Origin: Bacteroidales bacterium
GTDB taxonomy: Bacteria > Bacteroidota > Bacteroidia > Bacteroidales > UBA932
DNA: 24,265 bases
Assembly: GCA_017429205.1 (NCBI GenBank)
Contig: JAFRPH010000034.1
Location: 1-24,265, forward strand
Reading direction: 5' to 3'
Shown here: positions 13,127 through 23,307 of the stretch, in pieces
Layout of the letters: the number at the start of each line of letters is the position of its first letter
Position numbering within the stretch: position 1 is the stretch's first letter
Notes under the pieces: model-generated
What the model saw: only the letters and a program-made list of their open reading frames with translations
The model's database searches: none
What the model was told of the DNA's origin: nothing
Position numbers and translations under genes: made by a program

Positions 13127-14308
13127 CTAGTTTTCGAGGTTGGTAAGGAAGCCGATGTTCGCGACGATCTCGCGGGCGTAGCCGAACGGACGGACGCGCA
13201 GGGTGCCCTCCACCTTGGAGGTCGCCAGGACGTTCTGGGTGGCGTCGATGAAGAAGCGGCATCCGCTCCCGTCCACGACGCTCAGCTCGCCGTTGGCGGT
13301 CATCTGGGTGTCCACGGCGGTCTCGACGGCGGCCTGCCATCCCTTCAGGACGGGGGCCTGCATGGTGCCGTCCGTGGTCACCTCGATCTCGTCCAGGAGG
13401 AACTGGAGCAGGGTCGCATAGGCGATGCGGGCGGCCTTGTCGGCCGTGCGGCGGGCGGTGAGATGCGCGTAGTCGTCGGTCTTGGCGACGGCCATGCAGT
13501 CGTCGGTGAAGTAGTAACCGGTCAGGCCGGTGTAGATCCGGGGCGTGATGTAGCCCTTCGCGTAGGCGTCGTCCACGGCGTCCATCGCATCGTCCACCAG
13601 GGCGGAGCCCAGGTACATCGATGCGGGCGCGAGCGGGCCGGAGGCCACGCGGCCGATGTTCCGCTGCACGGGGACGGACGCGATCCGGCCGGCCAGCGTG
13701 CCGACGGCGGCGCCCTTGGAGCCGGAGGCGGTGTCTCCGATGAACACGGCGACACGGTTGCAGTCCAGCGCGGTGAGGTCCTTCAGCGTCGAGGATGCCG
13801 TATAGGAACGGCCCTCGATGACGGCGAAGACCGGCGCGTACAGGTCGTCGGCCATATGGTCGGCAAGGGCCTGCGCCTTGGGGACGGCCGCGAAGACGTC
13901 CGGGTCCAGCCCTTCCGTCACCGTCGGCGTCGTAGTGGCGGCGGAGGCGACGATGAGCCCGCGGACGGCGCCGCGGAGGCCTTCCAGGATGCCCTTGACC
14001 GAACCGGTCGAGACGTCGCAAGCGGACGCCATCGAGGAGCCGGAGACGCCCGCCACATAAAGGGGCGTGCCCTCCTCGGCCTCGGCGTAGAACTGACCCA
14101 CCAGCTCATGCACCCGGGCATTGTTCGTCGCGGTCACGCCCAGCGACGCGAGGGAACCGGCGCTCACCAGGCGGTAAGCCTTGCCCAGCTCGAACGTCGT
14201 TCCGACGGCCGCGGCGCCAACGACCACCATCAGCAGCAGGCCGTCCTGATTGTCAGGGGCTGCGCCGATAAGGCCGTTCAGGTAGTTGATCTTGACTCTC
14301 GGAAGCAT
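13127..14308 (-). CDS. Tail sheath protein (DUF2586-like)
   Basis: 393 residues starting MLPRVKINYLNGLIGAAP. The features include LLLMVVVGAAAVGTTFELGKAYRL near the N-terminus, the long middle NRVAVFIGDTASGSKGAAVGTLAGRIASVPVQRNIG region typical of sheath proteins, and a C-terminal closing domain (IVANIGFLTNLEN). Its presence shows the phage is a myovirus with a contractile tail. It lies 60 bp after the capsid gene, separated by a GC hairpin. Confidence 0.85.
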   Translation of the reverse strand: MLPRVKINYLNGLIGAAPDNQDGLLLMVVVGAAAVGTTFELGKAYRLVSAGSLASLGVTATNNARVHELVGQFYAEAEEGTPLYVAGVSGSSMASACDVSTGSVKGILEGLRGAVRGLIVASAATTTPTVTEGLDPDVFAAVPKAQALADHMADDLYAPVFAVIEGRSYTASSTLKDLTALDCNRVAVFIGDTASGSKGAAVGTLAGRIASVPVQRNIGRVASGPLAPASMYLGSALVDDAMDAVDDAYAKGYITPRIYTGLTGYYFTDDCMAVAKTDDYAHLTARRTADKAARIAYATLLQFLLDEIEVTTDGTMQAPVLKGWQAAVETAVDTQMTANGELSVVDGSGCRFFIDATQNVLATSKVEGTLRVRPFGYAREIVANIGFLTNLEN

Positions 14309-18600: not shown

Positions 18601-19041
18601 ATGAGCAATTTCATCACGCCGGAGGACTACGACGCCTCCATCCACCGGGAGATCCTGGACGCGCTGCTCCGTCATGACAGCGACGTCTCCGACTCCGCCA
18701 TCGTCGAGATTTGCGAGGACCGCGCCGTCTCGGAGATGCGCTCCTACCTGGGCAAATACTACGACTGCGACGCCATCTTCAGCGCCACCGGCTCCGACCG
18801 GCACCCGCTCGTCCTGATGATGGCCATCGACATCGCCGTCTATCACATCTTCTGCCAGCACAACCCCTACAAGATAAGCGAGATCCGGAAGGAGCGCTAC
18901 GAGAGGGCCGTCGAGTGGCTCAAGGCCGTCGCGGCCGCGAAGGTCACCATCGACGGGGCGCCGAAGCTCCCCGATGAGGAGCTGCACGCGAACTCACCCT
19001 GGCAGATCGAGTCCGAGGTCCTCAGGGATACCCGCCTTTAA
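18601..19041 (+). CDS. gp36-like protein (DUF1320), head-tail connector
   Basis: 146 residues of largely helical sequence (FITPEDYDASIHREILDALL ... LVLMMAIDIAVYHIFCQHNPYKISEIRKERY), which is the DUF1320 pattern. Related proteins are head completion/adaptor factors between portal and tail. In Mu the gene lies after the capsid gene; here it is between terminase and portal, a rearranged order common in Bacteroidota Mu-like phages. Confidence 0.78.
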   Translation: MSNFITPEDYDASIHREILDALLRHDSDVSDSAIVEICEDRAVSEMRSYLGKYYDCDAIFSATGSDRHPLVLMMAIDIAVYHIFCQHNPYKISEIRKERYERAVEWLKAVAAAKVTIDGAPKLPDEELHANSPWQIESEVLRDTRL

Positions 19042-19060: not shown

Positions 19061-20434
19061 ATGGCAAACAAGAGAGGCCGCCCGGCGGCCAAGAAGACCA
19101 TCACCCAGACCAGCGTGACCGGCATTTTCCCCGGACAGGGGAATCCTTCGATCATCCTGCAGAGCCCCGAACTCTTCCACTTCGACATAGCGAAGTACCG
19201 CTCCGCGCTGGAGAGCGCCGAAGCCATCGACTTCCACAACCGGTCGGAGCTCTACGACATCTACCACTCAATCCTCCAGATGGACGGCCATCTGTCCGGC
19301 ATCGTGGAAAAACGCCTGAGCGCGGTGAGCCGCGAGCGGTTCGAGTTCCTGCGAGACGGCAAGCCCGTGGACGAGGTGAACCGCCAGATCCGCTCGCCCT
19401 GGTTCCGCAGCTGGGTGAAGGATGCCGTCGCTTCCAAGCTCTGGGGCTTCTCCCTCTTCCAGTTCCGCCGGGACGAGAAGGGGTGGATCACCTACGAGCT
19501 CGTCGACCGGAAGCACTTCGACCCGACGACCCGTGAGGTGCTTCTGTACGAGACGGACGTCAACGGCGCCCCGCTGGACGTCTTCGAGAACTGCCTGCTC
19601 GTCTGCGACGACCCGCGCGGACTCGGCAAGCTCGCGAACTGCGCGCCCTATGCCCTGTACAAGAGGGGCAACCTCGGAGACTGGGCGCAGTTCTGCCAGA
19701 TCTTCGGCATGCCCATCCGCGAGTACACCTACAGCGCCGGTGACGAGGACGCCCGGAAGCGCCTGCTGGCGGACGCCCGCAAGCAAGGCGCCAACGCCGT
19801 GTACATCCATCCGGAGGGATCCTCCATGACCCTGCACGAGGCCGCCGGCAAGAGCGGCACCGTCGACCTGTACGAGCGCTTCCTGGACAACTGCAACGAC
19901 GAGATGTCCATCTCCGTGCTCGGCAACACCCTCACGACGAAGAGCGAAAACAACGGCACCCAGGCGCTCGGCACCGTCCAGGCGAAGGAGCAGCTGAAGA
20001 TCACCGACGACGACGTGCAGTTCATCCTGGACCTGCTCAACTACGACATGACGGACATCTTCGCCGCCCTGGGCGTCAGCACCGAGAACGGGGAGTTCGT
20101 CCGCGTCGAGCAGAAGTACCAGGACAAGCAGGTCCAGATCAACGTCGTTTCCAAGCTCAGGGAGATGGGCCTTCCCATGTCCGACGACTACCTGTACGAG
20201 ACCTTCGACGTGGCCAAGCCGGACGATTACGACGCCCGCAAGGCCGCCATCGACGCCGAGAGGGAGGCCGCGGCCGAGCAGCGGCGGATCCTCGCGCAGC
20301 GGCTCAACGAGGGCGCCCGGGAGACGCGCCAGGAGCCGACATCCGAAGAGCGGCGCACCTTCTATGACCGCTTCCGGAGTTTTTTCGGCCTGGCCCCGCG
20401 GGACGGGGCGTCCGGAGATCCTTTGCCCTTCTGA
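19061..20434 (+). CDS. Portal protein (Mu gp29-like, DUF935)
   Basis: 457 residues. The central part is typical DUF935: LVDRKHFDPTTREVLLYETD, YALYKRGNLGDWAQFCQIFGMPIREYTY, then a catalytic-free helical C-terminus. It forms the dodecameric DNA channel at the head vertex. The basic N-terminus (NKRGRPAAKKT) is unusual for the family but present from the first ATG. The final codons contain an AGT TTT TTC run, out of line with the gene's strong C/G third-base preference; this is a potential frameshift site into MuF. The TGA stop is at 20432-20434. Confidence 0.88.
   Translation: MANKRGRPAAKKTITQTSVTGIFPGQGNPSIILQSPELFHFDIAKYRSALESAEAIDFHNRSELYDIYHSILQMDGHLSGIVEKRLSAVSRERFEFLRDGKPVDEVNRQIRSPWFRSWVKDAVASKLWGFSLFQFRRDEKGWITYELVDRKHFDPTTREVLLYETDVNGAPLDVFENCLLVCDDPRGLGKLANCAPYALYKRGNLGDWAQFCQIFGMPIREYTYSAGDEDARKRLLADARKQGANAVYIHPEGSSMTLHEAAGKSGTVDLYERFLDNCNDEMSISVLGNTLTTKSENNGTQALGTVQAKEQLKITDDDVQFILDLLNYDMTDIFAALGVSTENGEFVRVEQKYQDKQVQINVVSKLREMGLPMSDDYLYETFDVAKPDDYDARKAAIDAEREAAAEQRRILAQRLNEGARETRQEPTSEERRTFYDRFRSFFGLAPRDGASGDPLPF
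20380..20409 (+). other. Candidate programmed -1 frameshift signal between portal and MuF genes
   Basis: Heptamer T TTT TTC at 20380-20386 is in phase with the portal frame (agT TTT TTC). A 6-nt spacer is followed by a 6-bp GC hairpin (GCCCCG 20393-20398, loop CGGGA, CGGGGC 20404-20409). A -1 slip enters the MuF frame, which has been open since 20368. The portal frame terminates 15 codons later. Confidence 0.6.
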
Positions 20435-22557
20435 TTGACCGGCAATACAGCTGCACCTGCGGGGCCTGCGGAGGCCTCCGGAACGAGGGGGCCGACCTGG
20501 GCGTCACCTTCAGCGCCGAAGCGCTCACGCGGGGCCTGCGCGCCATCTGGAACCGCAACATCGACGTCCGGACGGAAATCGAGCGAAGCATCTTCGACGA
20601 GACACTGCGCCTCTTCAACGAAGCGACCGCGAAAGGCCTCTCGGAGAGCACGGACCCGGCGGCCGTCACCGACCGCTTCCTGGAGGAACTGAGGACGAAC
20701 AATGCCGTCTTCTCGGCCTTCAAGACCCACCGGATGCAGAACGACATCGCCCGGCTGCTCATCGACCAGGAGACGGGACGCCTGAAGAGCTTCGACCGAT
20801 GGCGCCGCGACATCCAGGGGATGACCAGCCACTACGTGGACAGCTGGCTGAAGACCGAGTACGACACGGCCGTCAACCGCGCCCATCAGGCCGCCGACTG
20901 GAAGCACTTCCAGGAGGAGGCCGACGTCTTCCCGAACGTCCGCTGGATGCCCACGACGTCCATCACGCCGGACCCGCTGCATGAGCGCTACTGGCAGCTG
21001 AAGCTCACCCTTCCGGTGAACCACCCCTTCTGGGACGAGCACCACCCCGGCGACCGCTGGAACTGCAAGTGCACCCTGCAGCAGACGGACGAACCCGTCA
21101 ACGCGGAAGCCCTCGACGGCTGGACCCCGCCCCTCCCGATGCCCGGACTGGACAACAATCCCGCCAAGGACGGCAAGATCTTCAGCGACACCCATCCATA
21201 CGTCACCGAAGCGTATCCGGGGGCGGCTGGAGCCGTGAAGGCGACTGTAAAGGGCGCGCACGTCCCGTCTCCAACCATCCAGGACGCAGAGGCCTTTGCC
21301 GAGCGATTCGTCCAACAGAGCATGATGGACCGGACCTTCAAGGGGAAGGTGTCCTACAAGGGAATCAGCGTGGACGTGGCCGACAGGATCAACGAGGCCC
21401 TGGTCGAAGCCTTCGACCGGCTGGAGATGCCCAAGATATCGGGTATCAAGGCGATATCCGCAAAGACGGCCACCGGGAGGAAAGTCTTCTCCGGAGCGGA
21501 TGCCGTAGCCGCGTACGACCCTGTCCAGAAGGGCATCTACCTGAACTCGGACATCCTCGGCTCGATGGACAAGTTCGACGAGTATGTCCGGAAATCCCGG
21601 GAAGCGTTCCGGAAGGTGAAGGAGAACCTGGACAAGCTGCCGCCATCCAGGCGGGCCATCGCGGAAAGGTACATCAAGGCAGGGCGCGAGCTGGTCGACG
21701 ACAGCCTGGAGGGGATGATCACCCACGAGCTCGGCCACCATGTCCAGTGGAACGTCCTTCCCACCCAACTGTTCAACGAACTGGGCGACCGGGAAATGGA
21801 GCGCTTCGTGACCAGGATATCCGGTTACGCCGGCGCCAGCAAGAGCGAGTACGTCGCCGAGTCCTTCGTCTCATGGATGAGGCGCGAGGGGCGCATCGAC
21901 CCGCGCCTGCAGGCATTCCTGGACGCCCAGGCAAAGAAACGCACGGCTGAACACGTCCTTCCGGAAGCACGCGGCCGGAAATCGGACCTCGTGAAGCCGA
22001 AGGCCGGGAAGATCCTGCGGAGCAAGGAAGGAATAGCCGCCGATATGGAAAGGCTGCATGAGCTGGAGGGGGAAGCGTACTGGAAGCAGCTGAAAGCTAT
22101 CACCGAAAGGAAGGAATTCAAGAAGGTGAAGAAGAACATTTTTTCGGCAGCGGGCGAATCCGACCAGGACTATACCCACCTCCTTGAGGCCGCAACAAAA
22201 GCCGTAGAGCAAGGCTTCAAGGCCTTCATTCTGCCGAACCCGAAAGGGCTCCGGAGCGCTGATTTAATCCTGGAGAGAAAGGGATTCTACCGGATGTACG
22301 ACGTCAAGACAATCACCGGGAAGGCCTCTGTAAGCAACAGACTCAAAGAGTCGATCGGTCAATCCCAGAGAGTGATCCTCTCGATCAACACGGAGGTGAA
22401 CCCCCGTATCCTGGCGAGTGACATCACCGCTTTCTTTGAGCAATCGGACGCAAAGGAGGTGATGGTATTTAAGGGAGGGAAAATGCTGGTCATAAACCGC
22501 GAATATGCTTTAGCAAGCGATTTCATGGTAAAGTTCAGAAAGGCGTTCACCAGATGA
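20431..22557 (+). CDS. MuF-family head protein with zincin peptidase and C-terminal CdiA-like nuclease toxin domain
   Basis: About 708 residues if counted from the CTG overlapping the portal stop. Residues 1-230 are the MuF minor head domain, ending with HHPGDRWNCKCTLQQ, a family hallmark. The start is odd: no ATG, GTG or TTG occurs in frame until 20734, which would remove ~100 conserved-looking residues (YSCTCGACGGL...). Start is by CTG, ATT or -1 frameshift from the portal gene. The middle carries a zincin with H432-E-L-G-H436-H437 and Glu477 (YVAES), a gluzincin arrangement. The last ~130 residues have Asp611 (SADLIL), Asp624-V-K626 (YDVKTITG) and GQSQRVIL, like PD-(D/E)xK CdiA C-terminal tRNases. 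MuF proteins enter the head in small numbers and can be injected with DNA, so toxin domains could act in the recipient. GC falls in the final ~400 bp. No immunity gene follows. Confidence 0.8.
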   Translation: MIDRQYSCTCGACGGLRNEGADLGVTFSAEALTRGLRAIWNRNIDVRTEIERSIFDETLRLFNEATAKGLSESTDPAAVTDRFLEELRTNNAVFSAFKTHRMQNDIARLLIDQETGRLKSFDRWRRDIQGMTSHYVDSWLKTEYDTAVNRAHQAADWKHFQEEADVFPNVRWMPTTSITPDPLHERYWQLKLTLPVNHPFWDEHHPGDRWNCKCTLQQTDEPVNAEALDGWTPPLPMPGLDNNPAKDGKIFSDTHPYVTEAYPGAAGAVKATVKGAHVPSPTIQDAEAFAERFVQQSMMDRTFKGKVSYKGISVDVADRINEALVEAFDRLEMPKISGIKAISAKTATGRKVFSGADAVAAYDPVQKGIYLNSDILGSMDKFDEYVRKSREAFRKVKENLDKLPPSRRAIAERYIKAGRELVDDSLEGMITHELGHHVQWNVLPTQLFNELGDREMERFVTRISGYAGASKSEYVAESFVSWMRREGRIDPRLQAFLDAQAKKRTAEHVLPEARGRKSDLVKPKAGKILRSKEGIAADMERLHELEGEAYWKQLKAITERKEFKKVKKNIFSAAGESDQDYTHLLEAATKAVEQGFKAFILPNPKGLRSADLILERKGFYRMYDVKTITGKASVSNRLKESIGQSQRVILSINTEVNPRILASDITAFFEQSDAKEVMVFKGGKMLVINREYALASDFMVKFRKAFTR

Positions 22558-22594
22558 AAAAAGTGGGAGACACCGTAACGGCAACTCTCCCACT
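22556..22594 (-). terminator. Intrinsic terminator of the minus-strand RNA
   Basis: On the minus strand: AGTGGGAGA (22594-22586), a 15-nt loop holding an inner CCG-TTA-CGG hairpin, TCTCCCACT (22570-22562), then a T-run to 22557. There is no T-tract on the plus strand, so it acts leftward. The T-tract overlaps the MuF stop codon. Confidence 0.85.
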
Positions 22595-22660
22595 AAGGTT
22601 TGGCGCGACTCGAATTGGAACTACGCCCCACAGTAATACTCACCGGCTAGTCACTAAGGA
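22557..22660 (-). ncRNA. Candidate antisense small RNA (~104 nt) at the 3' end of the MuF toxin gene
   Basis: A consensus promoter and a strong terminator on the minus strand bracket about 104 nt without a coding frame. The RNA can form a 10-pair hairpin, GGCGUAGUUC (22627-22618) with GAGUCGCGCC (22611-22602), loop CAAUUC, with one A-C mismatch. It uses G-U pairs that would be mismatched in the plus-strand RNA, which supports function as a minus-strand transcript. It is antisense to the intercistronic region between the MuF and gpG genes. I do not recognise it. Possible roles: control of toxin mRNA, or an unrelated moron RNA. Confidence 0.6.
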
Positions 22661-22665
22661 CACTG

Positions 22666-22696
22666 CAAATGTAACTAATTATTAACAAATAACAAA
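22666..22696 (-). promoter_or_regulatory. Consensus Bacteroidota promoter for the minus-strand RNA
   Basis: Minus strand reads TTTG (22696-22693), 19 nt, TACATTTG (22673-22666), a full match to the TTTG-N19-TAnnTTTG vegetative consensus. Transcription should begin near 22660. It needs no phage activator, so it should be active in the lysogen. Confidence 0.75.
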
Positions 22697-22713
22697 TTTT
22701 TGACCGAAAAACT

Positions 22714-23307
22714 ATGCCTGCACCGGATTTCGCCGGAATGATCAAGAATGACCTGGCCGATCTTCAGAGGCTCAGGGAGCGCACCCTGCCCGTCAAGGTG
22801 GGGCGGGCCGTCCAGGCGTCCGTCCGCGAGAACTTCCGGAAGGGTCAGTTCTACGACGGCGAGAAGTGGGTCACTCCGCTCCGGACCACCCTGGGCTTCC
22901 GGGGTGCCAGCGGCCAGTACGGGCCGCTGCTGTCCGGATCCAATCACCTGATGATGTCCACGGACTACTACGTCCCCCGCCCGGGTACGGTGGTCATCTT
23001 CAACAACGAGGTGTATGCGGCCACGCACAACGACGGGAAGCAGATCGGCGTGACGCCCAGGATGCGCAAATACTTCTGGGCACGCCACCTGGAAGACAAG
23101 AAGCGGTACGGCCCCGAAGCTCCGGAGACGGAGTTCTGGAAGCGCATGGCCTTGAAGAAGCCGGGGAGCCGCATAAAAATCCCCAGGAGACACTTTCTCG
23201 GCCCGGACAAGGTAGTTGACCGGACCGTCACGAATATCATCAACAAGGAGCTGGAAGGCTTCATCAAAACGCATTCCCATGGAACAATTACTTCTCGATC
23301 TCATTAA
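22714..23307 (+). CDS. Virion morphogenesis protein, gpG-like
   Basis: 197 residues (MPAPDFAGMIKNDLADLQRLRERTLPVKVGRAVQASVRENFR). The N-terminal amphipathic helix, the WVTPLRTTLGFRGASGQYGPLLSGSNHLM segment and the RIKIPRRHFLGP end are the Phage_tail_S/gpG pattern. In Mu, gpG is needed for tail or head completion and follows gpF directly, as here. Its 5' leader contains the minus-strand RNA promoter, so the two transcripts run from opposite sides of the same ~50 bp. It overlaps the next gene by 29 bp. Confidence 0.85.
   Translation: MPAPDFAGMIKNDLADLQRLRERTLPVKVGRAVQASVRENFRKGQFYDGEKWVTPLRTTLGFRGASGQYGPLLSGSNHLMMSTDYYVPRPGTVVIFNNEVYAATHNDGKQIGVTPRMRKYFWARHLEDKKRYGPEAPETEFWKRMALKKPGSRIKIPRRHFLGPDKVVDRTVTNIINKELEGFIKTHSHGTITSRSH

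Follow-up and report, generated by a model that had tools for sequence, protein, structure and literature searches.

Probable −1 frameshifting from portal into MuF in Bacteroidota phages, by a slip element found in both polarities

We analysed a 24,265-nt stretch of DNA from a Bacteroidales bacterium (UBA932; GenBank GCA_017429205.1, contig JAFRPH010000034.1, forward strand; hereafter the window), in which a phage portal gene overlaps the reading frame of a MuF gene. Judging from the sequences of this junction and its relatives, −1 programmed frameshifting very probably joins portal to MuF and sets the ratio of portal to portal–MuF. Ribosomes on the portal mRNA would meet U_UUU_UUC, followed after 6 nt by a hairpin; some of them would slip back by one base, pass the portal stop at 20434 and read MuF in the −1 frame, giving a portal–MuF protein of 1,165 residues, and those that do not slip would give a portal of 457 residues. 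Both products would enter one portal ring, which may anchor MuF and its variable C-terminal domain, here CdiA_C-like, to the portal vertex at a fixed ratio. In relatives of opposite polarity, unshifted ribosomes would make the fusion and slipped ones the bare portal.

The slip element and its conservation

An earlier note, made from the window sequence, had placed a slippery heptamer, a spacer and a 6-bp GC hairpin near the portal stop, and these positions proved exact to the base (Table 1). The portal, which scores 256.6 bits against the PF06074 profile, above the gathering cut-off of 23.9, ends in AGT TTT TTC GGC CTG GCC CCG CGG GAC GGG GCG ... TGA. The note had found AGT and TTT out of character for this gene, and each is indeed unique in it (one of 27 Ser and one of 24 Phe codons). 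It was also right that coding in the MuF frame reaches upstream of any ATG, GTG or TTG: the earliest of these is the ATG at 20734, with a CTG at 20431. The expected fusion of about 1,165 residues corresponds to 442 residues before the predicted slip and 723 after it. The window has the usual marks of a −1 signal, namely an X_XXY_YYZ heptamer in zero-frame phase, an overlapping −1 open reading frame without its own start, and a stimulatory structure 5–9 nt downstream, here a 6-bp stem 6 nt away. TTTTTTC occurs eight times on the two strands of the window (1.6 expected) and is by itself not rare; another copy, at 22139, is out of MuF phase. No Rfam family matched between 20200 and 22720 at E values up to 1.

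Table 1. Features of the portal–MuF junction and of the MuF gene in the window
Feature	Position	Strand	Basis
Zero-frame portal gene (Portal_Mu / DUF935)	19061..20434	+	PF06074 5.2e-76; phrog_113 portal 2e-62
Slippery heptamer T_TTT_TTC, portal phase	20380..20386	+	sequence; codons AGT (20378), TTT (20381), TTC (20384)
6-nt spacer between heptamer and stem	20387..20392	+	sequence
Hairpin, putative stimulator: GCCCCG 20393-20398, loop CGGGA 20399-20403, CGGGGC 20404-20409	20393..20409	+	
Portal stop TGA, predicted end point of unshifted ribosomes	20432..20434	+	sequence
MuF coding, −1 frame as read after the putative slip; frame open from 20368	20386..22557	+	sequence
Phage_Mu_F domain	20794..21078	+	PF04233 24.0 bits, below cut-off 29.6; phrog_19194 9.6e-69; phrog_220 minor head protein 7e-15
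CdiA_C-like toxin domain, MuF C-terminus	22297..22482	+	PF18451 22.7 bits, below cut-off 26.6

Searching viral contigs for the portal yielded 32 loci, three of which (L024, L026 and L030) end short of the junction. In 28 of the 29 close relatives that include it, TTTTTTC is present in phase, L010 having seven T, and MuF lies in the −1 frame in all 29, including three loci at 51% portal identity (L027, L028 and L031). At 25% portal identity, Elizabethkingia phage TCUEAP3 keeps the heptamer and has a different and longer stem.

Synonymous variation was measured in 28 aligned portals (the window and 27 others, not dereplicated) as the share of same-residue pairs with different codons. It is 0.00 for the Ser codon of the heptamer and 0.00 and 0.07 for the two Phe codons, and across the stem it runs 0.00, 0.00, 0.13, 0.00, 0.00 and 0.20, whereas the two spacer codons vary normally (0.59 and 0.42). 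Among 439 nine-codon windows, the three lowest and 10 of the 12 lowest all fall at the slip element; the remaining two, nearly as low, span the motif DWAQFCQIF. As the spacer shares the double-coding stretch and yet varies, frame overlap alone cannot explain the constraint on heptamer and stem, which are conserved at the RNA level beyond the proteins.

Portals were also surveyed independently of the motif: PF06074 was run against 395 genomes from across the phylum, against 296, 393 and 194 from three orders and against 101 from a single family, sets that partly overlap and were chosen around motif-carrying genomes; all matches were taken as loci except short or partial ones (G111, G146, G262 and G681). 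Pooling all loci gave 364 portals and 273 representatives at 90% identity, of which 247 (26 were too short) entered a FastTree phylogeny. Several of its branches are weak, and it divides a recoding clade of 219 from a classical clade of 28 (support 99). We call element-blind the survey loci L318–L474 minus L426, the protein-found loci L001–L039 and L160–L190, and the window; this set excludes every pattern locus as well as L308–L317 and L426, whose seed genomes had been chosen by pattern, and one of the six search peptides, KNAYNWLK, sits just upstream of the slip site. State A denotes MuF in the −1 frame with an in-phase heptamer, and state B a frame-0 fusion with a candidate slip site and an early −1 stop; states B and D depend on junctions placed by hidden Markov models and on loose criteria. 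The 134 element-blind members of the recoding clade include 91 in state A, 15 in state B, one with MuF in −1 and no heptamer, and 11 with no MuF seen.

By a motif-free criterion, 92 of the 99 separate MuF genes in the recoding clade lie in the −1 frame (p 1e-35 against 1/3, a value that assumes independent tips, which these are not). In the 28 tips of the classical clade, MuF is in −1 in six and in other frames in six, and 16 have no MuF seen. Among representatives with MuF in −1, an in-phase heptamer stands within the final 60 nt of the portal in 67 of 73 from the survey and in 30 of 30 from viruses, against 23 and 17 of 73, and 3 and 0 of 30, for the other two phases. Two further scans added nothing: one of viral contigs with the Elizabethkingia portal returned four stretches, none confirmed, and one of genome contigs with a 16-sequence alignment was unproductive, conservation being too low.

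Heptamers switch type among lineages while remaining slippery. In the element-blind clade set, state A sites carry TTTTTTC (60), AAATTTT (13), TTTTTTT (5), AAAAAAG (3) and AAATTTC (3), and more rarely GGGAAAG (2), AAAAAAA (2), AAATTTA, AAAAAAT and TTTTTTA (1 each); the 15 state B tips have TTTTTTC (6), AAATTTT (4), AAAAAAG (3), AAAAAAA (1) and TTTTTTG (1). A search for strong stems starting 4–8 nt downstream was positive at 78 of 98 A sites and at 8 of 15 B sites, whereas control positions within those genes gave 5.4% and 5.3%, respectively. In the 86 positive sites the stem starts after 6 nt (52), 5 nt (22), 4 nt (10) or 7 nt (2), and there are 34 outer six-base stems, some of them mere register shifts of each other. 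The earlier note's central proposal, that a programmed −1 frameshift joins portal and MuF, is supported by phase, heptamer, spacing and hairpin kept to about 25% portal identity, as well as by the exchange of heptamers and stems, the frame bias and the synonymous constraint.

Inverted polarity and rival explanations

A motif scan of viral contigs gave at least 120 stretches, with 71 in state A, 29 in state B, three with portal only, two seven-T fusions and 15 without a portal match, some of which are cut contigs. The corresponding scan of genome contigs gave at least 117 stretches with 129 positions (itself a lower bound): 22 in state A, six in B, one with portal only and 100 that matched neither portal nor MuF. 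The 29 positions with a portal all come from Bacteroidota by their record names, and two of the 22 (L235 and L246) are seven-T loci with portal and MuF in one frame. In Porphyromonas gingivalis phages, portal and MuF form a single gene of about 2,560 nt whose junction has the same T_TTT_TTC and hairpin, with a −1 stop 63–78 nt further on, a pattern present in all five records examined out of 10 that match. The −1 stop of T6 B sites from the viral-contig scan lies 36–96 nt away, which is near chance, so the argument for those sites is that the element has been retained. Seven of the element-blind B cases have their −1 stop at most 12 nt from the first base of the heptamer.

Parsimony requires at least 10 changes between A and B over 145 A and 38 B tips, a count that includes pattern-found tips and leaves out B tips with a T run other than TTTTTTC. 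Translated in its two frames, the element gives approximately FFxxAPxxGA and FFRxSPxxRG, and the roles of these frames, as the end of the bare portal and as the link to MuF, are swapped between A and B. Since both polarities would yield fusion and bare portal, selection would keep the production of both forms. We lean somewhat towards the broader interpretation that a recoding element has been kept across Bacteroidota phages with the roles of its two frames repeatedly inverted, under selection for a mixed ring of bare and MuF-bearing portals, the slip rate setting the number of MuF (toxin) arms per vertex. The earlier note had supposed that the fusion is made in limited copies, which would put a few toxin-bearing subunits at the vertex; yet the slip fraction f need not be very small, a guess suggested by a switch from f to 1−f having been tolerated about ten times.

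Some junctions are fused outright. Seven T in place of six put portal and MuF in one frame in L073, L134, L310 (Flavobacterium covae; same region as L246) and L315/L426 (same region as L235); these may be real switches or sequencing errors. L317, L442, L446 and L468 are fused in frame as well; each has ten A in a row, and its −1 stop comes 9 nt past the first base of the heptamer. Their junctions look much like that of dnaX, and transcriptional slippage is possible there.

Several observations weigh against frameshifting. The junction in the window folds with a minimum free energy (MFE) no better than that of shuffles (z +0.34; 115 of 200 fold at least as well), and over 68 T6 A sites the median MFE z is a moderate −1.56. 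The heptamer alone is not rare and the MFE is ordinary; it is phase, geometry and conservation that give the signal in the window its weight. The stem test was passed by two of 10 AAAAAA- sites and neither of two GGGAAA- sites. Of the 134 element-blind portals in the recoding clade, nine are fused and show no convincing site, seven of the 99 separate MuF genes lie in another frame, and no convincing site accompanies the separate genes of Flavobacterium phages pippi8-1 and FPSV-S1; the slip signal is thus not universal. Start codons also bear on the question: 19 of 98 relatives, including Bacteroides p00, have ATG, GTG or TTG within 12 nt of the portal stop, and an in-frame ATG, GTG or TTG lies between the heptamer and a point 10 residues past the start of the MuF match in 53 of 98 A sites, with none in the other 45. 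In Bacteroides p00 and its kin an ATG or GTG stands at −4, so a separate MuF start is also conceivable there.

That MuF is initiated separately near the portal stop by stop–start coupling, at CTG 20431, ATT 20434 or another weak start, nevertheless seems very unlikely to us. The earlier note had kept CTG initiation, perhaps derived from ATG, as its alternative, and this CTG does overlap the portal TGA, but the equivalent codon over the portal stop is ATG in none of 98 relatives and NTA in 75, the full tally being TTA 28, GTA 25, CTG 15, ATA 13, CTA 9, GTG 6 and TTG 2. MuF remains in −1 even where the portal stop is 10 nt past the start of the heptamer, and separate initiation leaves heptamer and stem unexplained. 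We therefore rejected CTG 20431..20433 (+) and ATT 20434 as MuF start, the position not being conserved as one. Somewhat less credible again is transcriptional realignment, in which RNA polymerase, slipping on the T run, inserts an extra base, so that the mRNA carries the fusion in one frame. Many junctions do have runs of 6–7 T or about 10 A, but six T is short for polymerase slippage, the same place is taken by A_AAT_TTT/C and, twice, by G_GGA_AAG, and the phase and the stem about 6 nt downstream suit ribosomes. Polymerase slippage does not account for the AAATTT- sites (17 of 98 A sites), which are not homopolymers, and with such heptamers at the same site it was rejected as the general cause; it may still act in the A-run lineages. 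We give the least credence to the idea that the stem serves some other local role, in the RNA or in the protein, with the frame relation inherited. The conserved C-terminal FFxxAPxxGA peptide of the portal could be under protein selection, yet heptamer and stem codons are nearly invariant synonymously beside variable spacer codons, many different stems keep the spacing and not the sequence, and in-frame fusions retain the element despite the swapped roles of its peptides.

Gene context, known systems and biological meaning

In the window, the portal is preceded by a gp36-like adaptor (18601-19041) and MuF is followed by a Phage_tail_S gene (22714-23307), which makes the locus the head module of a Mu-like phage. 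The PF04233 match of MuF is sub-threshold, and its position beside the portal and its PHROG matches agree with MuF identity. PHROG 35074 and PHROG 220 each match both the portal and MuF of the window, which shows that fused forms are present in databases. C-termini vary among eight scanned MuF proteins: CdiA_C-like in the window and, more weakly, in L029, Gln_amidase in L005, L008, L027 and L033, and a weak metallopeptidase-family match in L031. Between the toxin-like end and the next gene (22558-22713) there is no evident immunity gene; the gap holds an inverted repeat, GTGGGAG/CTCCCAC. Elsewhere, an ARAGORN call of tRNA-Thr (tgt) at 13408-13498 (+) overlaps open reading frames on both strands and may be false.

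In E. coli dnaX, the long product is read in the zero frame throughout, and slippage leads to a stop close to the heptamer. The state B set resembles this tau/gamma arrangement in both respects, with such a close stop in the seven element-blind cases described above. Portal–MuF differs from it in being a phage structural gene, usually with T_TTT_TTC or A_AAT_TTT, and the window itself has the opposite polarity, the dnaX-like layout being that of the B relatives. In phages, the portions of a recoding review consulted here describe the lambda G/GT tail assembly chaperones, where a late −1 slip gives a minor, C-terminally extended product conserved in many phages, and phages A2, T3, PSA, A118 and A500, where recoding extends a subset of virion subunits at the C-terminus; for such capsid and tail extensions, the direction of the shift, or in-frame decoding instead, differs between phages (PMC5009743). 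As in lambda, a −1 slip would occur late in a gene for virion assembly, but portal–MuF involves other genes, usually a strong stem and a polarity that inverts between lineages. The contrast with A2, T3, PSA, A118 and A500 is that here the portal would be the extended subunit, the added part being a minor head protein, MuF, whose toxin-like ends vary, and that a single slip element serves both polarities.

In MuF polymorphic toxins, the MuF gene follows that of the portal and its C-terminal toxin domains can be exchanged, and SPP1 gp7 binds the portal in 1–2 copies, according to the main text of PMC5576092; there and for Bxa (main text of PMC11699363), MuF is a separate gene, unlike the predicted fusion here, and 'frameshift' appears in neither main text. 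The words 'portal' and 'MuF' are absent from the first 300,000 of 475,107 characters of the recoding review (PMC5009743) and from the available part of a hankyphage paper (PMC12135933). A near precedent comes from PRFect, among whose false positives are VIP2 ADP-ribosyltransferase and MuF-like genes that elsewhere form a single fusion gene; 'portal' does not occur in the corresponding part of that paper (PMC10885494). Among top search results from the open-access literature, with subscription papers mostly outside, we recognised no paper on a portal–MuF frameshift. What appears to be new is thus portal–MuF −1 recoding with inversion of polarity, within the known kind of phage −1 frameshifting.

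Many portal and MuF genes of Bacteroidota phages, including isolated phages, are probably misannotated, with missing N-termini or a 'portal' that is a fusion. In Elizabethkingia phage TCUEAP3 (L037) and Winogradskyella phage Peternella_1 (L483, whose slip site is an A run), the deposited MuF starts about 100–280 nt past the portal stop, and the MuF frame is open and matched before that start. The natural pairs of A and B polarity offer a ready comparison for the ratio that selection favours. If our reading is correct, frameshifting would be a mechanism for placing a few copies of MuF at the single portal vertex, their number being fixed in translation and not in assembly.

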